This document shows positions 38,217 to 59,460 of a stretch of 64,000 nucleotides of DNA, one piece after another. Source of the stretch: Truepera radiovictrix DSM 17093 (GTDB taxonomy: Bacteria; Deinococcota; Deinococci; Deinococcales; Trueperaceae). Position 1 is the first letter of the stretch. Every line of letters starts with the position of its first letter. The stretch is taken from NCBI RefSeq assembly GCF_000092425.1, contig NC_014221.1, positions 524,001 through 588,000 of the forward strand. Direction: 5' to 3'. The translations under genes were made by a program, and so were the position numbers. The notes under the pieces are model-generated. The model made no database searches, had not been told where the DNA came from, and saw nothing but the letters and a program-made list of their open reading frames with translations.

Positions 38217-38306
38217 TGGCGGCCGTTCGGCGCCCGTCGGGTATCGCTGGTGTGGTTGGTGCGACATCTGCCGGTTGGGTGTGAACTACCAATACCTCTT
38301 AGTGCA

Positions 38307-38324
38307 ACACCCCTCGAGGGGTGT
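38307..38324. repeat. 18-bp perfect palindrome
   Basis: ACACCCCTCGAGGGGTGT reads identically on both strands. Its size and lack of loop suit a dimeric protein operator or a cruciform better than a terminator, and no T tract follows. Confidence 0.6.
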
Positions 38325-38594
38325 AGGTGTCATTGGGAGCGCTTGGCGACGTGTGCGCGCCGCCGGTCAGCTGGTGCTCGCTCAACTACCGCCGTGGTGC
38401 TTTCTGCTCGTCATGCACTCTTTCTGCATCATACTCATCTTGTGTGACCGCTCACCTTTGCGCCCTGCACCTTGGAAAGCGCCTCTATGCTCCACGCTTG
38501 TATGAGAGATGGGTGGCCGACCCAGGAAGTTCTCTACGCCCGTGCAGGTAAAGAAAAGTTTCGCCTCGCCTCATAAAACTCACATATGGCCTTA

Positions 38595-38608
38595 ACAATT
38601 TTAATTGT
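38595..38608. repeat. AT-rich inverted repeat
   Basis: ACAATT, TT, AATTGT, in the AT-rich segment about 180 bases before the lipoprotein gene. Possible operator. Confidence 0.35.
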
Positions 38609-38785
38609 AGCGCAGGATAAGTTTGCCTCCGCTGAGCGGGTGGCCTCCCCTCGAGCAACCCACGGTGCCCTTAAAGCCTGTGGTGCGCGCACCTTGACCG
38701 CGTAGGTCCTCAAAGGGTGCTTAGGCCTGACCGGGGCGGTTTCTGGTCACACTTCCTGAAGCTGAGCAGCGGAGAGGACAAACAC

Positions 38786-39937
38786 TTGAAACGTACGGCG
38801 AACCCCAAGGTGGCGCGCAGTAGCTGGGCAGGCGTCCTGACCCTCATTAGTCTTCTTTTTTTAGCGGCCTGTAGCAGCGGTTTAGAGCGCGAGCTTCCAG
38901 TTGAGTTGGCGCCGACAAATAGCAGGAGCGAGTGGCACAGCCGACTTTTAGCCAGCATGGAAAGGACGGGTATCGCGCCCGAGCTCGACCCCGTGCGGAT
39001 GGCTGACTCCGGCGATCTCTACGTCTACGGCCGGAACATGAACCACTACCTAACGAGCCTGATCCTGGCGTACCGGACGACGGGGGACCGGCGTTTGGTG
39101 CAGCAGATCGACACGGTGATGAACCGGATGCAGGGGACGCTGCGCGACACCACCGGCGACGGCTTTCGCAACTGGCGCTATCTCAGGAGCGGTTCGGGTA
39201 GCTTTTACGGACGCGACACCCACGAGATGGACGAGATGATGACGCACTCAGTGGTGGCGGCGGCGGCCTACACGCTGCGGCAGGCGGGCTTTAACAGCAG
39301 CGCGGACTTCTGGACGAACTACCTGCGCAACGACTTCGAGGCCAAGTGGCGTCGGCGCAAGGGGGTGCGTTCGGGCTTTCCGTTTTTGACGCGCAACCTG
39401 ATGCACCCGTACGTGCAGTGGATCCGCTACCACCACTACATGGGGAAGCTGACGGGCGACAGCGGCTACACGGCCGAGGCGCGGCGGATGGCGCGGATCG
39501 TGGAGAACAACATGCGCAGCGTCAACACGCCGTCGGGGACGGGGTACGTGTGGGACCACCGGGTACAGCTCTCAGGGCGAGCGAGCAACGGTTGCCAGCC
39601 GATGGTGTACGTGCGGCTGACGACGCAGGGGCTAGCGGACCTGGCGACGCAGGGGGTGTTCAGCAACACCTTTATGCAGCGCGTGGCCAACGGTATGGCC
39701 CATGTCGGCCTCAAGAGCACCGACGGGCAGCTCGCGGGCAACATCTGCGGGAGCGGAACCTATAGCAACCGCAGCGCTGTACGAAACTTCCCCTACGCTC
39801 AGATCGCCTCGTGGGATCGCTCAGGCCGTCTGCGTACCGCGGCTGAACGCGTCTACAACGCTACCGAGCGTCATAACCTCTCCCAGCCTCGGCTGTACAA
39901 TCTCCCAGCAACGATGGTCTTTACCTTGGGTCGGTAA
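38786..39937 (+). CDS. Large lipoprotein with helical-toroid-like sequence
   Basis: I choose the TTG at 38786 because GGAGAGG lies at correct spacing and a clean signal peptide with lipobox (LAAC, Cys29) follows. The 383-residue protein is rich in aromatic, His and Arg residues with repeated helical pairs (NMNHYLTSLILAYRTTGDRRL, EMDEMMTHSVVAAAAYTLRQAGF, WIRYHHYMGKLTGDSGY). This resembles the alpha/alpha-toroid folds of polysaccharide lyases and glycoside hydrolases. I cannot assign a family. Two Cys (NGCQP, NICGS) may pair. Confidence 0.72.
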   Translation: MKRTANPKVARSSWAGVLTLISLLFLAACSSGLERELPVELAPTNSRSEWHSRLLASMERTGIAPELDPVRMADSGDLYVYGRNMNHYLTSLILAYRTTGDRRLVQQIDTVMNRMQGTLRDTTGDGFRNWRYLRSGSGSFYGRDTHEMDEMMTHSVVAAAAYTLRQAGFNSSADFWTNYLRNDFEAKWRRRKGVRSGFPFLTRNLMHPYVQWIRYHHYMGKLTGDSGYTAEARRMARIVENNMRSVNTPSGTGYVWDHRVQLSGRASNGCQPMVYVRLTTQGLADLATQGVFSNTFMQRVANGMAHVGLKSTDGQLAGNICGSGTYSNRSAVRNFPYAQIASWDRSGRLRTAAERVYNATERHNLSQPRLYNLPATMVFTLGR

Positions 39938-39970
39938 GACGCCCCAGTCAACGCCACGAGAAAAGCTGAT

Positions 39971-39992
39971 GGGCCCCGCAAGGGGTCCTTTT
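39971..39992 (+). terminator. Intrinsic terminator after the toroid lipoprotein
   Basis: A 7-bp stem with one GU pair (GGGCCCC, loop GCAA, GGGGTCC) is followed by four T. Confidence 0.75.
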
Positions 39993-40290
39993 CGTTGCAC
40001 CTTCAGAAACAGGGCAGTCCGGCGTGGGCTGACGGTGCTTGAGGAGGAGCGCCCTGGAGGTCTTCGGGGCGATCTCACTCAAAAAATTTAGATTTGACTA
40101 GCGGGTAAACGTAAAAACCCAGAGCACCAGCACTGAGGCGGGGCTTGTAGGGTGCAGCAAGAGAAACCGGCATGGCGATCTGTTTGGGGCACCGGTTGGA
40201 GCCTCATGCACGTTCGGGATGTTTCGCATTTAAGCCGTACCGAACTTCGGTTCTAATTCGGCACAGCGGCTCCGAGGACCCGAGAGGTCC
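39993..40290. other. Gene-free AT-richer spacer
   Basis: No convincing gene. A 7-bp hairpin (GAGGACC, CGAGA, GGTCCTC at 40274-40292) abuts the stop codon of the leftward metallophosphoesterase gene. It lacks a T tract on the minus strand, so terminator function is uncertain. Confidence 0.4.
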
Positions 40291-41160
40291 TCAAACCTTT
40301 TGGGCGGTCAGCGTAAACAACGTCAGTTCCGGCAAGCAGTTGAGCCTCACCGGCGCGACGCTGCACCCGAGCCCGCGCGTCACGTAGAGCCGGTTGCCCA
40401 CCTTGCCGTGCCCCCGCACCCAGTCGTCGGTGTAGACCTCTCCGTCGCGCAACCAGGTGAGCAGAGACCAACCGGGGCCGAGGGGGAGCCTGACTTGTCC
40501 CCCGTGGGTGTGCCCCGCGACGGCGAAGGGCGCTGCGCACGCCGGCACGTTCGCAAACGAGCTCGGATGATGCATCATGACGATGCGTGGCGCCCCCTCG
40601 GGAACCGCCGCGAGGGCTTTCTCGGGGTCGTCGTGCCCCGGGGTGTGGGTGCCGATACCCACCAGATAGAGCGCTTCACCCGCTTCATTTTCGAGGCGCA
40701 CCGCTTCGTTTTCGAGCACCTGCACGTCTATCTCCTCCAAAGCCGAGGTGAGGCGCCTAGCGAGCTCGAGGTCAGGTGTATCTTTCTCGGTCGGCATGGC
40801 GTAGTCGTGGTTGCCCAAAACGGCGTAGCAGGGTAGTCCAGCATCCGTAAGAGGGCACAGCAGTTCGGTGACGGGTTCGATGGCCCGCGCGGTGTCATGG
40901 ATGAAGTCGCCGGCAATGAGCACGAGTGCGGGGCGCTCCTCTAGGACGCGCTCGACAGCTCGGCCCACGGTCGAGCGGTTGTCGCCGAAAAGTCCCACCT
41001 GAAAGTCCGCAAGGAGTGCGACCGTTGCCCCCTCCCAACTCGCGGGAAGCCCCGGCACGTGCGCCTTGTGCCGCTCCGTGACGAGCATGCGGGGCTCGAT
41101 AAGGGCTTGGATGACGCCGATCACGAACAGTCCGACGACCAAAAACACCCAGGGTGTCAT
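40291..41160 (-). CDS. Membrane-anchored metallophosphoesterase
   Basis: The 289-residue protein has one N-terminal transmembrane helix (residues 4-22) and a calcineurin-like phosphoesterase domain: LLADFQVG (the usual DxH is DFQ here), LIAGDFIHD, LGNHDYAMP, MMHHPSSF and AGHTHGGQ. It resembles YkuE/YaeI-type membrane phosphodiesterases. The change of the first His ligand (DxH to DFQ) is a possible functional difference. Confidence 0.87.
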   Translation of the reverse strand: MTPWVFLVVGLFVIGVIQALIEPRMLVTERHKAHVPGLPASWEGATVALLADFQVGLFGDNRSTVGRAVERVLEERPALVLIAGDFIHDTARAIEPVTELLCPLTDAGLPCYAVLGNHDYAMPTEKDTPDLELARRLTSALEEIDVQVLENEAVRLENEAGEALYLVGIGTHTPGHDDPEKALAAVPEGAPRIVMMHHPSSFANVPACAAPFAVAGHTHGGQVRLPLGPGWSLLTWLRDGEVYTDDWVRGHGKVGNRLYVTRGLGCSVAPVRLNCLPELTLFTLTAQKV

Positions 41161-41410
41161 AGCACCGCTCGCTTACGCTCTAGACTCATCATTCTCGGTC
41201 AACCCCCATAGGCGCTTTTTCGGCCGAAGCTCCTCTACCTTAATACGCCGCCGTCAGGGCTTTTCAAGAGGGGTGCGGTAGGTTAAGCTACCCATTAAGG
41301 TTTTCTTAAGCTTGGGTTGGTTAGATGAGATGCCATGCAGAACAGTCCTCGGTACGGCGCACGCTGCGGGGTGGGCTGATGGCAAAAGCTATAGGGTCTT
41401 AGGAGGAAAG

Positions 41411-43456
41411 ATGAAAAAGCGGCTTTGGTCCTTGCCCCTACTGTTGTTGGTAGGGCTCATGGGTTGCGGTGGTCCAGGGGGCCCTGATCCCAATGTTACC
41501 CCGCCACAGATCACCAGCTTTACCGCGAACCCTTCAGCTATCAGTGCCCCTGGTCAAGCCGTCACGCTGAGTTGGACGGTATCGGGTGCGGTGACGAGCC
41601 TCAATCTCTCTGCGGACAACGGTACGAGCCCCGGCGCCGTTAGCGGCAGCAGTACGGTTGTCTATCCGACCCAGAACACGACCTACACGCTCACCGCGAG
41701 CAACAGTGCCGGCTCCGCTTCCTCGTCGACCAATGTCACAATCGGGGGCAACGTCTCTCCGCCAGGTGGCGAAAACGGCTTACCTCCAACGGGTACCTTT
41801 GGCGTTTCACTCACGCAAAGCGACTTTCAAAACGACGCGGGTAGCAACATCTCGAGTCCAGATGACCCCCGCATCGTCCGCGTACAGCCCGGCGGCACCT
41901 TCTACGCACTCGTCTCCTATAGCGACCCCGGCGGGATTTCGGGCGTAAGCATCCGCATAGCCAACAGCAGCCCACCCGGCCTCGCCGCGCCCCTCGTTCA
42001 AGGCCAAGAGGTCGGTGGCTTTACGTTGGTCGGTGAGGTGGCCGGATGCGACCTCTCGGGTACGCAGACGTCCGTTAACTGCATCTACGAGATTCGCGTC
42101 GGCAACATTCAAAACATCGACCAGCTCCAGGGCTCAGGTAGCGAGTTCGCCTACGTCTTCCGCACGAACGTCACGGACAACGCAGGCAACACCTCTGATG
42201 AGGCCATTCGCGGCTACGTCATCGTAGGTAGCAACACCTCGAACCCGCCCTCGCAGCCTTCGCCCCCTTCACCTCCGTCTCCGCCTTCGCCTCCATCCCC
42301 GCCTTCACCCCCTTCGCCTCCATCTCCGCCTTCGCCGCCCTCACCCCCGTCTCCGCCTTCGCCCCCTTCGCCTCCGTCTCCGCCTTCACCCCCCTCACCT
42401 CCGCCTTCGCCCACGACCTACACGTTGACGGTCAACAAAACGGGTAACGGCAGCGGCACGGTCAAGAGCAACCCCAGTGGCATCGACTGCGGGAGTGACT
42501 GCACGGAGAACTACCAGAGCGGTACACAAGTGACCTTGACCGCCACGGCAGCAAACGGCTCGACCTTTGCGGGTTGGAGCGGTGCGTGTAGTGGTACGGG
42601 TACCTGTCAGGTCACGATGAGCCAGGCTAGAAACGTGACGGCAAAATTTGATGCAGCGTCGCCAACGCCGATGACTTACACACTGACCGTTAACAAGCCC
42701 CAAAACGGTACGGTAACCAGCACACCCCAAGGCATCAACTGCGGGGTTAACGGCAACGATTGTACAGAAGATTATACCAGCGGTACGAAAGTCACGCTGT
42801 CAGCCAACCCTGCTACAGGCTACAAGTTCGACTCTTGGGGCGGCGCTTGCAGTGGATCAACTTGTGAAGTCACGATGAATGCTGCGACAACCGTCTCTGC
42901 CACTTTCAGTGCGGTTCCTCAAGAGCTGAACGCCGAAGCTGGCCCGGCTCGTAGATCAGCTACCGTGGGTGAAACCGTTCAGTTAGACGGAAGTGCGTCG
43001 ACAGGGGCCACCACTTACCTGTGGACCATGGAGAAGCCAACGGGAAGCAACGCAACCATCAGCGGTGTAACACGCGTCAGGGCAAGCTTCGTACCGGATG
43101 TACCTGGTCAATACAAAGTCACTCTAACCGTAGGTAACGGCACCGACACTGACACGGATGAACAAGTTGTGGATGTTACCCTTCCCGCACCTGTAGCGGA
43201 TGCTGGCGACGATAGAGAGGTGAAGGTCAACCAGTCAACCCCGCTTGACGCGACAGATTCCAAAAACGCTGCGAGCTTTAAGTGGGAAGTGACTACAAAG
43301 GCGCCAGGTAGTAGCCCTCAAATTGCCGAGCCAACGAAAGCCAGTACGACCTTTACTGCTGATGTTGTGGGTGAGTACGTGGTGACTCTAACTGTCTTTG
43401 ACAGCGAAGGGAAACAGTCCGACAAAGACACAGTAAAAATTACCGTCATCCCGTAG
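41411..43456 (+). CDS. Modular surface lipoprotein with Pro/Ser spacer, InlB-like repeats and PKD-like domains
   Basis: A perfect AGGAGG precedes the ATG. The 681-residue protein has a lipobox (LMGC, Cys19) and an Ig-like domain (PPQITSFTANPSAISAPGQAVTLSWTVSG). A further beta domain ends near residue 275. A PSPPSPP spacer of about 55 residues follows. Two divergent InlB B-type repeats come next (YTLTVNKTGNGSGTVKSNP, FAGWSGACSGTGTCQVTM; then YTLTVNKPQNGTVTSTP, FDSWGGACSGSTCEVTM). Two PKD-like domains end the protein. It looks like a cell-surface binding protein. The last third is markedly lower in GC than the surroundings. Confidence 0.85.
   Translation: MKKRLWSLPLLLLVGLMGCGGPGGPDPNVTPPQITSFTANPSAISAPGQAVTLSWTVSGAVTSLNLSADNGTSPGAVSGSSTVVYPTQNTTYTLTASNSAGSASSSTNVTIGGNVSPPGGENGLPPTGTFGVSLTQSDFQNDAGSNISSPDDPRIVRVQPGGTFYALVSYSDPGGISGVSIRIANSSPPGLAAPLVQGQEVGGFTLVGEVAGCDLSGTQTSVNCIYEIRVGNIQNIDQLQGSGSEFAYVFRTNVTDNAGNTSDEAIRGYVIVGSNTSNPPSQPSPPSPPSPPSPPSPPSPPSPPSPPSPPSPPSPPSPPSPPSPPSPPSPPPSPTTYTLTVNKTGNGSGTVKSNPSGIDCGSDCTENYQSGTQVTLTATAANGSTFAGWSGACSGTGTCQVTMSQARNVTAKFDAASPTPMTYTLTVNKPQNGTVTSTPQGINCGVNGNDCTEDYTSGTKVTLSANPATGYKFDSWGGACSGSTCEVTMNAATTVSATFSAVPQELNAEAGPARRSATVGETVQLDGSASTGATTYLWTMEKPTGSNATISGVTRVRASFVPDVPGQYKVTLTVGNGTDTDTDEQVVDVTLPAPVADAGDDREVKVNQSTPLDATDSKNAASFKWEVTTKAPGSSPQIAEPTKASTTFTADVVGEYVVTLTVFDSEGKQSDKDTVKITVIP
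42243..42414 (+). repeat. Imperfect 9-bp coding repeats (PSPPSPP tract)
   Basis: About 170 bases of C-rich 9-bp units (variants of CCTTCGCCC and CCGTCTCCG) encode the Pro/Ser spacer. Such arrays change length by slippage or unequal recombination. Confidence 0.85.
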
Positions 43457-43474
43457 CGTGTTAATACCTGCATC

Positions 43475-43508
43475 CTCGAGCCCCGTCACCGCGCGGGGCT
43501 CGAGCCCT
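43475..43508 (+). terminator. Intrinsic terminator-like hairpin
   Basis: A perfect 11-bp stem (CTCGAGCCCCG with CGGGGCTCGAG, 8-base loop), followed by CCCTTT. The T tract is weak. Confidence 0.65.
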
Positions 43509-43595
43509 TTGCCGCTTCCCAAGGCCTCGAGCCCGCGGCTGGTAGCGCGCCTTCGTACACTCGAGTAACCGTGCGGGGGCCTCTGCAGGGGCGCC

Positions 43596-43601
43596 TATAA
43601 T
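43596..43601 (+). promoter_or_regulatory. -10 element of leaderless methylmalonyl-CoA mutase gene
   Basis: Consensus TATAAT, 6 bases before the ATG at 43608. Confidence 0.65.
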
Positions 43602-43607
43602 GGCCCC

Positions 43608-49035: not shown

Positions 49036-49899
49036 GTGAACGCTGCCTCCTCGAGCCGCCCCCAACGTCCCCGCGTTAGCGTCATCGTCCCCACGCTGAA
49101 CGAGGCCCAGAACTTGCCGCTCGTGCTCCCCCGCATCCCCGGTTGGGTCGATGAGATCATCGTGGTCGACGGTCGCTCGACCGACGACACGGTCGCCGTC
49201 GCCCAGGCGCTCGCGGCTTCGCTCAAACCGGCGCTGCGGGTGGTGCTAGAGTCCCGGCGCGGCAAAGGGGCGGCGCTCCGCGCGGGGTTCGCGGCCGCCA
49301 AGGGCGACATCCTCGTGATGATGGACGCCGACGGTTCGACCGAACCCGAGGAGATCGGCCTCTTCGTCCGCTACCTCATCGACGGGGCCGACTTCGTCAA
49401 AGGCTCGCGCTTTATGCAAGGGGCCGGCACCGCCGACATCTCGCCCCTGCGCTCGCTCGGCAACGGCGTCTTTACGCTCATGGTGAGGGCGCTTTTCGGG
49501 GGGCGCTTTACCGACCTCTGCTACGGTTTCGCCGCCTTCTGGGCCGACGTGGTGCCGCTGTTGGCGCTCGACGGCGACGGGTTCGAGATCGAGACGATGC
49601 TCAACATCCGGGCGCTGCGGGTCGGGTGCCGCATCGTCGAGCTGCCGAGCTTCGAGGCCGAACGCATCCACGGGGTGAGCAACCTGCGCACTTTTCCCGA
49701 CGGGTTTCGCGTGCTGCGTACGATTTTGCGGGAGCGCCTGAGGGGCAAACCGCTTCAGCGCTTGCGCACCGACCCCGCCGGAGCGACCTACCGCGGCCGC
49801 GGCGTGGTCCTCGAGGCTCATCCCGAAACGGCCGGGGCGAACGGCGAGCCGCGTCACCCGGTCGAGGCGCCCTTGGTGCGGGCCGCGAAGAGCTCGTAA
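49036..49899 (+). CDS. Family 2 glycosyltransferase
   Basis: The 287-residue enzyme resembles dolichol-phosphate mannosyl/glucosyl transferases of family GT2. It has SVIVPTLNEAQNLPLVL, IIVVDGRSTDDT, RRGKGAALRAGFAAAKGD and the metal-binding MMDADGST (DAD at 97-99), then the acceptor region with SRFMQGAGTAD and ERIHGVSNLRTFPDG. No membrane helices. It would transfer a sugar to a lipid or polysaccharide acceptor. First gene of the exopolysaccharide operon. Confidence 0.92.
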   Translation: MNAASSSRPQRPRVSVIVPTLNEAQNLPLVLPRIPGWVDEIIVVDGRSTDDTVAVAQALAASLKPALRVVLESRRGKGAALRAGFAAAKGDILVMMDADGSTEPEEIGLFVRYLIDGADFVKGSRFMQGAGTADISPLRSLGNGVFTLMVRALFGGRFTDLCYGFAAFWADVVPLLALDGDGFEIETMLNIRALRVGCRIVELPSFEAERIHGVSNLRTFPDGFRVLRTILRERLRGKPLQRLRTDPAGATYRGRGVVLEAHPETAGANGEPRHPVEAPLVRAAKSS

Positions 49900-49961
49900 A
49901 CCGCGGCTCGCGTACCGCTGCCCTCTTCCCTACGCGTCTTCATCCCTGGACGGTGCACAGC

Positions 49962-52310
49962 ATGCTCCCCCCCTACCCAAACCAGCCCACCGCCTCATCC
50001 TCTCAGCCCACCCTCTCGGTGGTGATCGCGGCCTTTACGGACGCGCGCTGGCCGCAGCTCCTGGCGGCCGTCGCCTCCGTCGCGGCGCAGCGCACGCCGG
50101 CGGAGCTCGTCGTCGTGGTCGACCATAACGACGCCCTGCTCGCCCGAGCGCGGGCCGCGTTGCCCGCGCACTACGCGGCGCACGCCACGCGAGAGGGCGC
50201 ACCTGGCGCGCTTGTCATCATCCCCAACACCCGAGCGCGCGGCCTTTCGGGGGCGCGCAACAGCGGCGTCGCCGCCGCAACGGGCGAGATCATCGCCTTT
50301 TTAGACGACGACGCGGTCGCCGAGCCCGATTGGCTCACGCACCTCACCGCGCCCTATGGCGACCCGCAGGTGCTCGGGGTCGGCGGCGCCGTCTTGCCCG
50401 CGTGGCCAGGCGCGGCGCCGAACTGGTTCCCCGAAGAGTTCGGGTGGGTCGTGGGCTGTTCGTACCGCGGTGGGCCGCGCGCGCGGGCGGAGGTGCGCAA
50501 CTTCATCGGCTGCAACATGTCGTTTCGCCGAAGCGCCCTGGCGGCGGTCGGCGAGTTTCGCGTCGGCCTCGGTCGCCTCGGCGCCCTGCCCGAGGGGGGT
50601 GAGGAGACCGAGCTCTGCATCCGCCTCCGGCAGCGCTTCCCAGAGGGGAGGCTGCTGCACGTGCCGGAAGCGCGCGTGGTTCACCGAATCGCGGCGCGGC
50701 GGCTCTCGCTCCGCTACTTCGCCGCGCGCTGCTACGCCGAAGGGGTGTCCAAAGCGCGCCTTACGGAGACCGTGGGCCGCACCGACGCGCTCGAGGCCGA
50801 GCGTGCCTACACCCGCACGGCGCTCCCCCGGGGGGTGCTGCGGGGCCTTGGCGCGGCCTTTGGTGGGGAGCTCGCGGGGTTCGCTCGGGCCGCCGCCATC
50901 GCGCTAGGACTCGGGCTCACGGCGCTCGGCTACTTCGTGGGGCTTGCTAAAGGCTATGGCCGCGCTCGAGGCACTCCCCGAGCGGCGCTCCCCGCCTCCG
51001 CTGCGGCGTTTGAACCGGTGCAGCTCGTCGACATCGACCTCAAGGGTGGCGTGCCCGACCTGCAACCCGCGCTCAGCGCGGCGGGGCGACCCTACCGGCG
51101 CGCGCTCGCCCTCGTGCGTTTTGCGGGGCGGCCTCTGGGTCTGGTGAAGCTCGAGCCCGGTCGCGCTGGCGTGAGCGCGCGGGCGTTCGGGGAGGCGATC
51201 GCCGCGCAGCTCGGCGTGCAAACCACGAGCGCGAAGCGCGTTTCGCAGGGCCTTCCCGGGTGCGCCGCAGGGGATAAGCGGTGGCCCTTTGTCAGCGTGG
51301 TGATCGCGACGCGCGAGCGCGCGCAGAGCCTCGAGCGCTGTCTGGCGTCGGTGGCCGAGCTCGAGTATCCCGACTTCGAGGTGATCGTGGTCGACAACAA
51401 CCCCGCTACCTCGGCGACGCGCGAGCTCGTGGCGGCCTTTTCGGCGCAGCGTCCGGCGCTTAGGCTACGCTACGTCCGCGAGGACTTCCCCGGCGGTGCG
51501 GCGGCGCACAACCGCGGGGTGCTCGCCGCGCGCGCCGAGATCATCGCCTTTACCGACGACGACGTGGTGGTCGACAAGGGGTGGCTGAGGGCGCTCGTCG
51601 CCGGCTTCGGGGCGGCCGAGCGGGTCGGTTGCGTCACCGGTATGATCCTCCCGGCGGAGCTGGAGACGGCGCCGCAGGGCTGGCTCGAGCAGTACGGCGG
51701 GTTCAACAAGGGTTTCGAGCTGCGCGCCTTTAACCTGACCGATAGGCGCCCGCCGAGTCCCCTCTACCCCTACGCCGCCGGGATCTTCGGTTCGGGGGCG
51801 AACATGGCCTTTACCCGCGAGGCGCTCTTTGCCTTCGGCGGTTTCGACCCCGCCCTGGGGCCAGGGAGCCAGGGGGTGGGCGGGGAGGACCTGGCCGCCT
51901 TTTTCGACGTCGTCACCCACGGTTACACGCTCGTCTATCAGCCGGCGGCACTTTTGTGGCACTACCACCGCCGCGACTACGAGGGGTTGCGGCGCCAGAT
52001 CTACGGCTACGGGGTCGGGTTCACCGCCTTTTTGACCAAAACGGTCGTCGAGCGCCCCGCGCGCGTCTTTGCGCTGTTGCCTTTGGGGTGGTGGGCGCTC
52101 ACCCACCTCCTAAGCCCCACCTCGCCCAAAAACGCCAACAAGCGCGCGGACTACCCGCCGGAGCTGAGTCGCCTCGAGCTCCGCGGTCTGCTCTACGGCC
52201 CCCTCGCCTACTTGCGTAGCCGCTGGCGTTTGCGCGGCGTCCGGGGGCGCGGGCGGCTCGTACGGGAGGCGCCACACCCGTCACTCCCTGCGGAGCGCCT
52301 CGCCGCATGA
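49962..52310 (+). CDS. Two-domain family 2 glycosyltransferase
   Basis: The 782-residue protein has two GT2 domains. The first covers about residues 15-300 (SVVIAAFTDARWPQLL..., ARGLSGARNSGVAAATGEIIAFLDDDAVAEPDW, DDD at 115-117). A hydrophobic hairpin and linker are at 300-430. The second covers about 440-740 (VSVVIATRERAQSLERCLASVAELEYPDFEVIVVDNN, TDDDVVVDKGWL near 530). Bidomain enzymes of this type often add two sugars. The start is uncertain: ATG 49962 or GTG 49953, neither with a clear ribosome site. It overlaps the deacetylase gene (ATGA). Confidence 0.9.
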   Translation: MLPPYPNQPTASSSQPTLSVVIAAFTDARWPQLLAAVASVAAQRTPAELVVVVDHNDALLARARAALPAHYAAHATREGAPGALVIIPNTRARGLSGARNSGVAAATGEIIAFLDDDAVAEPDWLTHLTAPYGDPQVLGVGGAVLPAWPGAAPNWFPEEFGWVVGCSYRGGPRARAEVRNFIGCNMSFRRSALAAVGEFRVGLGRLGALPEGGEETELCIRLRQRFPEGRLLHVPEARVVHRIAARRLSLRYFAARCYAEGVSKARLTETVGRTDALEAERAYTRTALPRGVLRGLGAAFGGELAGFARAAAIALGLGLTALGYFVGLAKGYGRARGTPRAALPASAAAFEPVQLVDIDLKGGVPDLQPALSAAGRPYRRALALVRFAGRPLGLVKLEPGRAGVSARAFGEAIAAQLGVQTTSAKRVSQGLPGCAAGDKRWPFVSVVIATRERAQSLERCLASVAELEYPDFEVIVVDNNPATSATRELVAAFSAQRPALRLRYVREDFPGGAAAHNRGVLAARAEIIAFTDDDVVVDKGWLRALVAGFGAAERVGCVTGMILPAELETAPQGWLEQYGGFNKGFELRAFNLTDRRPPSPLYPYAAGIFGSGANMAFTREALFAFGGFDPALGPGSQGVGGEDLAAFFDVVTHGYTLVYQPAALLWHYHRRDYEGLRRQIYGYGVGFTAFLTKTVVERPARVFALLPLGWWALTHLLSPTSPKNANKRADYPPELSRLELRGLLYGPLAYLRSRWRLRGVRGRGRLVREAPHPSLPAERLAA

Positions 52311-54367: not shown

Positions 54368-55672
54368 GTGCAAGCGTCTAAGGTGCCCGTGGTAGCGAAG
54401 TTTTGTGCGCAGCTCAAGTCGCATCTGGTGCTAAACGGTTACGCGCTCGTCTTTAGCTCGGGCGCGACCTCGGCGCTAGGGGTGGTCTACTGGATTCTAG
54501 CCGCGCGCCTCTACCCGGAGGCGACCGTCGGCCTCAACTCCGCCGCGCTAGCGGCCATGTTTTTCCTCACCAACCTCTCGCAGCTCAACTTGGTCCACGC
54601 GCTTAACCGCTTCGTCCCGTCGGCGGGGCGGAGCACGGCCAAGCTCATCGCGACGGCTTACCTTGTCAGCGTCGCGCTCGCTCTGCTGACGAGTGGGGTG
54701 TTTCTGCTCGGCATCGACCTCTGGGCGCCGAGCTTGCGGGCGCTGCGCGCCGACCCCGCTTCGGCCGCCTGGTTCATGTTTGCCACCGCCAGCTGGTGCA
54801 TCTTTACGATCCAAGACGGGGTGCTCGCGGGGTTGCGGCAGGCCAAATGGGTGCCCCTGTCGACGACCTCCTACGCGCTGATCAAACTGGCCGTTATCGC
54901 CTTGGCCGCTACGCGCTTGCCTCGAGGGGGCATCTTCTTCTCCTGGACGGCGCCGGTGCTGCTCCTGGTGGTGCCCGTCAGCGCGCTTATCTTTCTGCGG
55001 TTGGTGCCGCGGCACGTCGCCGCTGCGGAAACGCGCGGCGACGGCCTGAGGGGGCGGAGCGTGGTGCGCTTTGTCGCCGGCGACTACCTCGCGTCGCTCG
55101 TCTGGATGGCGACGGTCAACTTGCTGCCGGTGCTGATCGTCGAGCGCGCGGGTGCGTCGGCGGGGGCGTACTTCTACCTGGCGTGGACGATCGCCTACAC
55201 GCTCTACTTCGTCAGCGTCAACATGTGTATGTCGCTGGTCACCGAAGGAGCGCGCGACGAAGCGCGGCTCAACCTCTACAGCTTTGAGACGCTGAAGCAG
55301 ACCCTGCGTCTGGTGGTGCCGATCGTCGCGGTGGTGGTCGTCGGCGCCCCCCAGATCCTGCAGCTCTACGGCAGCGCGTACGCTGCGGAGGGGGCGACGC
55401 TGTTGCGGCTCCTCTGCCTCTCGGCCGTTCCGTACGTCTTCGTCGCGGTCCGCATCAGCATGGCCCGCGTGCAGCGCAAGATCCTCACCATCTTCTGCGT
55501 CTACGGCGCGCTATGCGCCTTGGCGCTCGGTCTCACCCACGTGCTGCTCGACCGCTACGGCGTCGTCGGGGTCGGCTGGGCTTGGCTGGTTGCACAGACG
55601 CTGACGATGGGGGTGCTGCTCCTAACCGACTTGCGTAGGGCGTGGGGACCGCTGCTCGGGCGCGCCGCGTAA
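54368..55672 (+). CDS. Polysaccharide flippase (Wzx-like)
   Basis: The 434-residue protein has about 12 transmembrane helices in the MATE/MVF-type polysaccharide transporter layout. It starts with GYALVFSSGATSALGVVYWILAARLYPEATVGLNSAALAAMFFL and has the family's Asn/Arg-rich first loop (NLVHALNRFVPSAGR). It would flip lipid-linked repeat units across the membrane. GTG start with GGAGG 4 bases upstream. The 120 bases before it hold no recognised feature. Confidence 0.88.
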   Translation: MQASKVPVVAKFCAQLKSHLVLNGYALVFSSGATSALGVVYWILAARLYPEATVGLNSAALAAMFFLTNLSQLNLVHALNRFVPSAGRSTAKLIATAYLVSVALALLTSGVFLLGIDLWAPSLRALRADPASAAWFMFATASWCIFTIQDGVLAGLRQAKWVPLSTTSYALIKLAVIALAATRLPRGGIFFSWTAPVLLLVVPVSALIFLRLVPRHVAAAETRGDGLRGRSVVRFVAGDYLASLVWMATVNLLPVLIVERAGASAGAYFYLAWTIAYTLYFVSVNMCMSLVTEGARDEARLNLYSFETLKQTLRLVVPIVAVVVVGAPQILQLYGSAYAAEGATLLRLLCLSAVPYVFVAVRISMARVQRKILTIFCVYGALCALALGLTHVLLDRYGVVGVGWAWLVAQTLTMGVLLLTDLRRAWGPLLGRAA

Positions 55673-55802: not shown

Positions 55803-57656
55803 GTGAAGGTATCCAACCAGAGGCCTAAAGTCGGGGTGTTCGTGGGGCGCCGCGCTGCGCCAGCCGCTCGCGTCGGGCGCGGCGCCGGCGACCTCACCCG
55901 CTTTGTCGTAGCGCTGCTCCTCAGTTTGGGCTTCGGCGCTTGGCTGCTGTCGCTCGCGCGTCTTTCCCCCGCTGACATCGACGCTTTCGGGCTCGTCGGC
56001 GCGCTCCCCGTAACCTACTGGCTCGCGCTCGTGAGCACCCTCGCCGTCTTCGTAGCGTGCTTGGGCAAAACCGCCGCCGCGTACTACCTCGGTAGCGTCG
56101 TGCTCCTGATCGTCTACCTGCACGCGACGCCCGCGCTCGTCTACGACGGTCTGCGTTACCCGTGGGTCTACAAACACCTCGGGCTCGTCGAATACATCGG
56201 GGTGTACGGCGCGGTCGACCCGCTCATCGACGCCTATCACAACTGGCCCGGCTTCTTTGCGCTCTGGGCGCTGCTCACCGAGACCGCGCAGCTGCCGCTC
56301 GAGGCGTTAGCGGCGTGGGCGCAACCCTTTTACAACCTGCTCTACCTGCCCCCGCTGCTGCTGTTCTGTCGCGCCTTTAGCCAAGATGCCCGCGTGGTGT
56401 GGTTGGGGGTGTGGCTCTTCTACCTCACCAATTGGGTGGGGCAGGACTACTTCGCACCGCAAGCGCTCGCGTATGTTTTCTACCTCACCGTACTGGCCTT
56501 TTTGCTACACCTCTTTCCGCGGCGTGACAACCGCCTGACGAGAACCCTCGGTCCAGGGGCCGCGCGCCTCTTGCGGACGACCTACCGTCCCCCCGAGGAG
56601 CCCGAGCGTTACACCGGTCGGCGGGCGGTGCTAGCGTACACGCTCGCGCTGCTCGCCTTTGCCGCGATGGTCTACAGCCATCAGCTCACCCCGTTTGTCA
56701 CCATCGTCTGCGTGATCGCGCTCGCGGCGGCGGGCGTTGACCGTCTGCGCGTGACCGCGCTTCTTTTCATGGCGCTCACCGCGCTCTGGCTCACCTTTAT
56801 GGCGACGGGCTACTTAGGTGGGCACCTTACGGAGCTCCTCTCGGACCTCGGCGCGATCGGGCAGAACGTCGAGCGCAACGTCGGCGAGCGGCTTACCGGG
56901 GCGCCCCAACGCCAGCTCGTGCTCAGCGTGCAGCTCGGCTTGTCGGTGGCGCTGTGGCTGCTCGCGGGTGCGGGGCTCGTCAAGAGTTGGCGGCGAGGGC
57001 GCAGCGATCTGGCGCTCGCCGCCTTGGCGTTCGCGCCCTTTCCGCTCCTCGCGCTGCAGCCGTACGGCGGCGAGGCGCTGCTACGGCTCTACTTCTTCAC
57101 CCAACCGGCGATGTGCCTGCTCGCCGCGCGCGCTTTGCTCCCCGATGGCGCCCCCAGGGTCGGGGCGAGGCGTCGGGTCGCGCTCGGAGCGCTTTCCGGG
57201 GTGCTGTTGGGGGGGCTTGTCATCGCTTACTACGGCAACGAAGCGGTCAACTACGTCTCCGCGACCGAAGCCGAGGTGTTTCGCGCCCTCTACGACACCG
57301 TGCCGGAGGGTTCGCTCCTCATGGCGGTCTCGCCCAACTACCCGCTGCGCAACTCGGCCTTTTACTACCGCGTGGTGAACACCTCGCTCGTACAGCAGCT
57401 TCGTCCGGAGCCCTTTGAAGCGGTGTTCGTCGACGAGGGGGTCGTCGACGTCAGCGCGCTCGTGGCGTACATGCGCGAGTTCCCCCACGCCTACCTGGTG
57501 TTTTCGGACGTGCAGCGCCGCAACCTCGAGGTGTTGCGCCCCGTGCCCGCCGCCTCGGTCGCGGCGCTCGCGCGTGCGCTCGCGACCGACCCGGCGCTCG
57601 AGGTGTTCTACCGAGCGGGTGACGTGGTGATCTATACCCTGAGGAGGGCGCCGTGA
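55803..57656 (+). CDS. Multi-pass membrane protein, possible polysaccharide polymerase
   Basis: The 617-residue protein has about 11-12 transmembrane helices and a large C-terminal soluble part (from about residue 490: YYGNEAVNYVSATEAEVFRALYDTVPEGSLLMAVSPNYPLRNSAFYYRVV). Periplasmic loops contain YHNWPGFFALWALL and NWVGQDYFAPQALAYVFYL. The NWPGF and QDYFxPQA pattern is seen in membrane proteins of polysaccharide loci that may act as polymerases or glycosyltransferases. No certain family. GAGGTGA precedes the GTG. It overlaps the next gene by 4 bases (GTGA). Confidence 0.75.
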   Translation: MKVSNQRPKVGVFVGRRAAPAARVGRGAGDLTRFVVALLLSLGFGAWLLSLARLSPADIDAFGLVGALPVTYWLALVSTLAVFVACLGKTAAAYYLGSVVLLIVYLHATPALVYDGLRYPWVYKHLGLVEYIGVYGAVDPLIDAYHNWPGFFALWALLTETAQLPLEALAAWAQPFYNLLYLPPLLLFCRAFSQDARVVWLGVWLFYLTNWVGQDYFAPQALAYVFYLTVLAFLLHLFPRRDNRLTRTLGPGAARLLRTTYRPPEEPERYTGRRAVLAYTLALLAFAAMVYSHQLTPFVTIVCVIALAAAGVDRLRVTALLFMALTALWLTFMATGYLGGHLTELLSDLGAIGQNVERNVGERLTGAPQRQLVLSVQLGLSVALWLLAGAGLVKSWRRGRSDLALAALAFAPFPLLALQPYGGEALLRLYFFTQPAMCLLAARALLPDGAPRVGARRRVALGALSGVLLGGLVIAYYGNEAVNYVSATEAEVFRALYDTVPEGSLLMAVSPNYPLRNSAFYYRVVNTSLVQQLRPEPFEAVFVDEGVVDVSALVAYMREFPHAYLVFSDVQRRNLEVLRPVPAASVAALARALATDPALEVFYRAGDVVIYTLRRAP

Positions 57657-59161
57657 CGCCTCTGCACCAGCGGATCGAGCTGCCACTTGTCAACCTCATC
57701 CTGAGCGGCGCAGCGCTCGCGGTCCTCGCCGCCGAGGCGCCCGCGGCGCTGCGCGCGCCCGTCGTGCTCGCCTTTGTCTTGTTCGGCCTCGGGCTCTCAG
57801 CGCTGCAGTTTCTCAGCTTCGGGGAGCTCGTCGCCGACCTGAGTTTCGTGCTCGCGGCGGGGCTCGCGCTGGTGACGGCGCTGACGGCTGCTATGCTCTA
57901 CCTCGTGGCGTGGTCGCCGCAGACCGCCCTGCTGACGCTCGCGCTCCTCTGCATGGCGCTGGCGCTCACCCGCTTGGGGTGGCACCTCAAACCCCGCTGG
58001 CAGCGCCGCGGGCGCAGCGGCCAGGTCGCGAGCCGCCTCGAGGCGCCGCCCCGCCAGACGCTCCAGGGGGGCACGCCGCTCGGGGGGGGTGCCGGGCGCG
58101 TGGCTGAGCAGGGCGCGCTGCGGGACCTGCTCGAGGGGCATGTGCTCGCCGAGATGGTGTGCCTCGCGACCTTGGCGGTGCTGTGCGGGGCCAACAGCTA
58201 CACGCAGATCCACCAGTACGGCCTAGCGCAAGAGGCGTGGCTGCGGAGCTTTCTGACGCTGCCGTCGGGGGTGCCGTCCCCGGAGGCCTTCGCGCGGCTT
58301 TTCGCGGTGCTGCGCCCCGACGCGTGGCGGCGGCAGCTGCTGGCGTGGACGCGGGCGCTCGTGTCGAGCGCGCCCGAAGCGCCGGGTAGCGCGTCGGTGG
58401 CTGACAGGGACGCCCCCGCCCCCGAGGGGCTCGGTGCGGTGCGCGTTGCTTTGGGCCAGAACGGGCTCGTCCTGGCGCAGCGCCCGGGCGACGAACGCGC
58501 TCACGTCGCGGCGATCCAGGAGCTTGCGACCCTCATCGAGCTTGGGGGCGCCGTCGTGACGACGGGCGCGCACCAGGGGCGAGACGTCGCCTGGACGCTG
58601 CGCGAGCACCGCGCCCACTACGTGCTAGCGCTCCAGGAGCACCCCGGGCTGCTCGCGAGCGTCCGGGACGTTTTCGGTTACGCCGACAAGCTCACCTGGA
58701 AGCTCGAGCACAGCTACCTCGAAACCTCCAAGCGGGAGGGGGAGCGCGAAGCGCGCCGTGAGTGCTGGGTCGTGCCGCCCCCCGAGTGGCTCCCCGAGCG
58801 CGAAGCTTGGCGCGACCTCGCGAGCCTCGTCAAATTGCGTTTAAGCCACACCGTCGGCGACGACACCTTGACCCGAACCCGCTACTTTCTGAGCAGCCTG
58901 CCCCTCGAGGCCGAACGCGCCCTTCACGCCACGCGTTCGTGTGCGGAGGGGGGCTGTGGTTGGCACTGGGTTTTGGAGGTGCCTTTTGAGGAGGATCAGC
59001 GCCCGGCCCGTCGCCAGAGTGCGCAGGCGAGCTGGCGCGCCCTCCGGCAGCTCGTCGCGGAGCTTTTAAACCGTGATGAAACGCTCGGGGGCGGCGACCT
59101 TCGGGCCAAGCGCCTGCGCGCCGGGTGGGACCGTGCCTACCTCTTTAAGCTCCTCTGCTAG
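57653..59161 (+). CDS. Four-helix membrane protein fused to an inactive ISAs1-type transposase fold
   Basis: The 502-residue protein is chimeric. Residues 8-108 form four transmembrane helices; 110-155 are a basic and Gly-rich linker. Residues 156-502 follow an ISAs1 (H-repeat) transposase: LAEMVCLATLAVLCGANSYTQIHQYG, WLRSFLTLPSGVPSPEAFARLFAVLRP, ENGLVL-like QNGLVLAQRP, YVLALQEHPGLLASVRDVF, TRTRYFLSSLPLEAERAL, HWVLEVPFEED, RAKRLRAGWDRAYLFKLL. The three catalytic acids are gone: the DGK block is missing, VTIDA is VVTTGA, and the IEN before LHWVLD is GGC. It overlaps the preceding membrane gene (GTGA), so it is an operon member, not an insertion. Function unknown. Confidence 0.85.
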   Translation: MTPLHQRIELPLVNLILSGAALAVLAAEAPAALRAPVVLAFVLFGLGLSALQFLSFGELVADLSFVLAAGLALVTALTAAMLYLVAWSPQTALLTLALLCMALALTRLGWHLKPRWQRRGRSGQVASRLEAPPRQTLQGGTPLGGGAGRVAEQGALRDLLEGHVLAEMVCLATLAVLCGANSYTQIHQYGLAQEAWLRSFLTLPSGVPSPEAFARLFAVLRPDAWRRQLLAWTRALVSSAPEAPGSASVADRDAPAPEGLGAVRVALGQNGLVLAQRPGDERAHVAAIQELATLIELGGAVVTTGAHQGRDVAWTLREHRAHYVLALQEHPGLLASVRDVFGYADKLTWKLEHSYLETSKREGEREARRECWVVPPPEWLPEREAWRDLASLVKLRLSHTVGDDTLTRTRYFLSSLPLEAERALHATRSCAEGGCGWHWVLEVPFEEDQRPARRQSAQASWRALRQLVAELLNRDETLGGGDLRAKRLRAGWDRAYLFKLLC

Positions 59162-59256
59162 CCGCCGGCCGTTGGTGTTCTCGACGAGGGTGCAACGGTG
59201 AGACGCCAGAAGAATCGGCCGAACGACACTTTTTCGGAGAGTTTTGGTGACTGGAG

Positions 59257-59460
59257 TTGACGACGTTTTTAACCACCCCGACGTTCTCTTGGCTCTCTAG
59301 CGTGGTGCTGTCGCTCGCGCTAGCGTTTTTCGTCGTCTTGGCCTACGCTGCGCTCAACCCGCGCGGCACCCTATACGAGAGGATGCGGCGGTTTGACCTC
59401 CTGGTCTTCGCCCTCTTTGCGCTCGTCATCAGCGCGCACCTCTGGCTGTTGGTCCGTTAA
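59257..59460 (+). CDS. Small two-helix membrane protein
   Basis: The 67-residue product has two transmembrane helices (about residues 12-32 and 48-66) with a polar loop NPRGTLYERMRRFD between them. The start is TTG 59257; no ribosome site is convincing, and a stop lies 9 bases upstream in frame. It is the last gene of the exopolysaccharide operon in this orientation. Unknown family. Confidence 0.55.
   Translation: MTTFLTTPTFSWLSSVVLSLALAFFVVLAYAALNPRGTLYERMRRFDLLVFALFALVISAHLWLLVR

Follow-up and report, generated by a model that had tools for sequence, protein, structure and literature searches.

In Truepera radiovictrix, a gene of a polysaccharide operon joins a four-helix membrane domain to a transposase-derived domain of the ISAs1 family that has lost its DDE triad. 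The fusion probably arose by insertion of an ISAs1 element into a small four-helix gene, which gave an in-frame fusion whose transposase part is now dead. The window, that is, the whole 64,000-nucleotide stretch of the T. radiovictrix genome that was analysed, contains at positions 57653-59161 (forward strand) a single uninterrupted frame of 502 codons, with a GTG start that overlaps the 3' end of the preceding 617-aa gene by 4 bases and a TAG stop. An earlier note, made from the sequence of the window, had described a fully open frame starting within the preceding membrane-protein gene, and the frame proved to be so arranged. The features of the region are as follows.

54368-55672, forward strand: flippase-like membrane protein, named by context (62% identical in G109)
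55803-57656, forward strand: 617-aa multi-pass membrane protein, Wzy-like by context, with no family match
57653-58006, forward strand: four-helix membrane domain, residues 1-118 (AlphaFold2 helices; position and size as in G109, G097 and G098; similarity to the G109 protein)
58007-58132, forward strand: linker, residues 119-160 (GC 83%, predicted disordered)
58139-59158, forward strand: ISAs1 transposase-derived domain, residues 163-502 (in frame throughout when aligned to the intact relative)
58382-58384, forward strand: Pro244, in the Asp-1 column (DGK motif); surrounding block replaced, 8-residue deletion
58565-58567, forward strand: Gly305, in the Asp-2 column (alignment to intact relatives)
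58751-58753, forward strand: Ala367, in the Glu-3 column (alignment to intact relatives)
59162-59259, forward strand: possible remainder (3' end) of the interrupted small gene, open and in frame with the fusion, ending in ...RRQKNRPNDTFSESFGDWS*
59257-59460, forward strand: 67-aa two-helix protein, positional counterpart of the relatives' 72-74-aa gene

Homology to ISAs1 transposases and loss of the active site

Profile searches confirmed the ISAs1 ancestry that had been proposed for the C-terminal part. The Pfam domain DDE_Tnp_1_assoc (PF13808) matched residues 163-233 of the fused protein (E=6.5e-16), and the NCBIfam ISAs1 transposase model NF033564 matched residues 169-472 over profile positions 2-314 of 314 (E=1.1e-48), with a score of 166 bits versus a curated cut-off of 70. 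The homology had been placed at residues 156-502; at its C-terminal end the RAKRLRAGWDRAYL block is indeed undamaged, but the detectable start lies near residue 163. The N-terminus of the transposase, with its DPR motif, was missing or unrecognisable, and the stretch KPRW at 113-116, which MAFFT aligned with that motif, was not a convincing counterpart.

All three DDE positions were replaced or lost, as the same note had stated. Pro244 stands in the Asp-1 column, where the block that reads LALDGKTARGS in the intact relative has been replaced and is 8 residues shorter, and the other two columns carry Gly305 and Ala367. For its part, the HWGIENGLHW block of the intact relative has become CAEGGCGWHW. 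The transposase part of the fused protein is probably without transposition activity. Compared with the ISAs1 family (NF033564; H-repeat-associated proteins), it shares the whole-length homology, the N-terminal associated domain and the C-terminal KRLRAGWDRAYL block, whereas it lacks the DDE triad, the HWxIEN motif, the DPR-motif N-terminus and the inverted repeats, exists as a single copy and is joined to four membrane helices.

At the ends of the transposase part, the best pair of candidate terminal inverted repeats was no better than those of shuffled sequences. A search for the inverted repeats of the relatives (CAGGG...) and for a target duplication flanking the fused gene gave nothing convincing, and an imperfect 9-mer direct repeat at 58052/59204 (8/9) was judged to be a chance occurrence. 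The left end of the element is probably located in the linker, although no recognisable inverted repeat marks it. Since neither an inverted repeat nor a convincing target duplication is left, we infer the insertion route from synteny and homology.

Elements related to the transposase part

The best match of the transposase part, in the phylum and in the scanned genome collection, was an intact 376-aa transposase from a Trueperaceae genome (CP070651.1, bin86; loci L002/L039), which was 48% identical and the sister of the fused copy in the tree; identity to further ISAs1 relatives was 41% and below. Unlike the fused copy, this closest relative retains the DDE triad, is bounded by perfect 20-bp terminal inverted repeats and has no membrane part. 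The terminal branch of the fused copy (1.04 substitutions per residue) was the longest of 37 and about six times that of its sister (0.165), so that much change happened without the appearance of a stop.

Among the full-length single-frame ISAs1 matches opened from the scanned genomes, the fused copy was the only one without the DDE triad, and most other ISAs1 remnants in these genomes were in pieces. As to mobility, the T. radiovictrix genome held no second full ISAs1 copy, only a split remnant (G000:C1:3183271-3184138; L016, L017 and L038) that is divergent from the fused copy and has a GC content of 54-57%. Two low-scoring long-frame matches, of 498 aa in G095 and 382 aa in G097, were considered as further fusions and rejected: both represent divergent ISAs1 subgroups, their DGK motif is intact and no membrane helices were noticed in them; the first, a 498-codon frame at L108:412-1908, carries a long N-terminal extension that was not membrane-like by eye.

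Relatives of the operon without the fusion

Elsewhere in the phylum, relatives of the 617-aa Wzy-like protein were found in three genomes only, namely, G109 (same genus), G097 and G098. In all three, the next gene encodes a stand-alone small hydrophobic four-helix protein of 114-124 aa (114 aa at L029:3288-3632, 124 aa at L030:3212-3586 and about 122 aa at L034) with no transposase part next to it, and a short two-helix gene comes after it. These stand-alone genes resemble the fusion in position, upstream overlap, length of the membrane part and hydrophobic helices; they differ in ending after the last helix, without a transposase part. Identity between the window and G109 was 59% for the FemAB-like protein, 62% for the flippase and 37% for the Wzy-like protein. 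The membrane part of the fused protein scored 5.6 standard deviations above shuffles against the small protein of G109, whereas its similarity to those of G097 and G098 was not significant, though both resemble the G109 protein.

The earlier note had proposed looking for the same fusion near wzx/wzy genes in other genomes; it was absent from G109, G097 and G098. Nor did genome scans, at the sensitivity used, or a single-protein contig scan reveal a second example, and the literature searched contained no description of this fusion or of ISAs1 domestication. Within the collections searched, the fusion is thus species-specific and, because it is missing from relatives that have the small gene alone, it is best read as a species-specific insertion of an IS.

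An ISAs1-family element would have entered the 3' part of the small four-helix membrane gene, producing a continuous in-frame gene that encodes the membrane part and then the transposase, and the transposase part would afterwards have lost its active site. The stretch at 59162-59259 may be the leftover 3' end of the interrupted gene, because it is open in the fused frame and its stop overlaps the following start codon (TTGA).

Predicted structure of the fused protein

In the AlphaFold2 model, the membrane domain contained helices at residues 11-28, 31-56, 63-85 and 89-111, in agreement with the four membrane helices previously placed at residues 8-108. An Arg/Lys-rich stretch, KPRWQRRGR (residues 113-121), follows directly after helix 4, and residues 110-146 of the linker were modelled with low confidence and predicted to be disordered. 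If the gene is translated, the four-helix part would retain its ancestral role next to the Wzy-like protein, with the tail lying in the cytoplasm as a non-catalytic appendage, as suggested by the Arg-rich stretch after helix 4.

The remainder of the model resembled a transposase domain but was broken in two stretches, residues 236-271 (Asp-1 strand) and 433-453 (HWxIEN helix region), where pLDDT was largely below 50. The intact relative, modelled in the same way, reached a mean pLDDT of 87.8 and a pTM of 0.84, and its model included both the Asp-1 strand (E112-124) and the long helix (H294-317). The two low-confidence stretches in the predicted model fit better with a damaged fold than with a tuned scaffold. 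The comparison with known folds that had been suggested gave no match, as Foldseek with the full fused-protein model returned nothing at E<=1e-3, and a PDB sequence search with the fused protein yielded chance matches only.

Retention of the open frame

Some selection would have kept the frame, whether for the sake of the product or its stability or because expression of the downstream two-helix gene requires ribosomes to pass through the tail. Frameshift-tolerant alignment to the intact relative revealed no hidden frameshifts in the tail, even at a low penalty, and all the length changes were of whole codons. Neutral decay was simulated at several levels of amino-acid change and equilibrium GC values. 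At 40-44% amino-acid change, no stop appeared in about 1% of the runs at an equilibrium GC of 0.66 and in 10-12% at 0.86; at the latter GC, 12-29% of the runs were stop-free at 20-44% amino-acid change.

The GC content of the tail by codon position (0.746/0.515/0.857) was similar to the mean of the host genes (0.715/0.498/0.883), while GC3 was 0.27-0.63 in the intact relatives and 0.62-0.65 in the split remnant, and the non-coding stretch adjoining the tail had a GC of 0.60. The tail differed from L002 and L003 at 31% of the codon-position-2 sites at which these two relatives share an A or T, versus 88% of such sites in position 3. Both the codon-position GC and the retention of A or T at position 2 may date from a period of activity of the element in a high-GC host, and the constraint may be older than the inactivation.

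It is possible, if doubtful, that the dead fold now serves as a co-opted cytoplasmic part of the membrane protein (a protein-protein scaffold, or a domain for nucleic-acid or ligand binding) and was selected for that role. The retention of residues argues for such a domestication: in columns with a conservation of 90% or more among intact relatives, 18 of the 22 hydrophobic, Gly or Pro residues were kept versus 9 of the 24 polar ones (Fisher p=0.003), although the losses cluster in blocks, so that these columns are not independent. At an 80% cut-off the contrast was weaker (p=0.025), neutral simulations there giving a hydrophobic-minus-polar difference near zero (sd, 0.11-0.12). In accordance with this reading, every indel is in frame, the neutral probability of a stop-free frame is about 0.01-0.1 at 40% amino-acid change, and no other full-coverage single-frame match without the DDE triad was found among the scanned-genome matches opened. 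However, conservation at the same place across species, used here as a criterion for domestication, was not observed, since the fusion occurs in one genome and is missing from all three relatives that have the Wzy-like gene, and the Asp-1 strand and HWxIEN helix region, both modelled in the intact relative, fell below a pLDDT of 50. The absence from relatives and the predicted disorder of these two core elements likewise weigh against the earlier view of a co-opted membrane-tethered scaffold or sensor, whereas the open frame, the codon-position bias and the kept core residues favour some constraint on the frame. That the dead DDE domain was adopted as the cytoplasmic part of a polysaccharide-operon membrane protein, its hydrophobic core being selected while the nuclease site was lost, is a tentative proposal.

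Selection may instead have acted on the open frame alone, the tail protein being without function; we consider this unlikely but credible. On this view, a stop or frameshift in the tail would have a polar effect on the two-helix gene at 59257-59460, and selection would preserve nothing but the open frame. The small gene and the two-helix gene of the relatives adjoin or overlap, and the pair is therefore probably translated together. Such a bridge for translation accounts for the absence of stops and frameshifts together with the loss of the catalytic residues. It leaves unexplained, however, the preferential retention of core residues; moreover, the two-helix gene directly downstream has a weak TTG start, and the similarity of its 67-aa product to the 72-74-aa protein of the relatives was not significant.

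That the tail is simply a decaying IS remnant, its frame open only by chance amid high-GC coding sequence, appears improbable. In favour of this reading, stops are rare at this GC (as the stop-free runs at 0.86 illustrate), catalytic and core blocks are both gone, the second ISAs1 remnant of the genome is split and the operon of the relatives does without the tail. Against it, frameshifts are entirely absent from the tail whereas most remnants in other genomes are split, A or T sites changed far less at codon position 2 than at position 3, and the codon-position GC is like that of live host genes, in contrast to the adjoining non-coding 0.60. Taken together, mere tolerance of the tail, or preservation of the frame for the sake of translation into the downstream gene, explains nearly as much as domestication does.

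For insertion of an ISAs1 element into the small four-helix gene, the significance depends on the fate of the tail. If the tail is used, a cell-surface pathway would have gained a non-catalytic, membrane-anchored module from an IS, and the state before insertion can still be seen in relatives. If it is unused, the case would be a warning for high-GC genomes, in which a long open frame with good family matches can be an IS-host fusion. Annotation alone would name the fused frame a transposase or a new multidomain protein.

The polysaccharide operon

The location of the fusion within a polysaccharide operon, already noted from the sequence, agreed with the content of the neighbouring genes. Upstream lie genes for a double GT2 glycosyltransferase, a polysaccharide deacetylase, a FemAB/GNAT-type protein, the flippase-like protein and the 617-aa Wzy-like protein; the last two were named by context because neither has a family match. 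The two GT2 glycosyltransferase domains lie in an 894-codon frame (window positions 49626-52310), the first ~110 codons of which are likely an over-extended start. Farther upstream, at window positions 38217-43607, the non-gene stretches had a GC content of 0.58-0.59, lower than that of most of the window (about 0.63-0.74).
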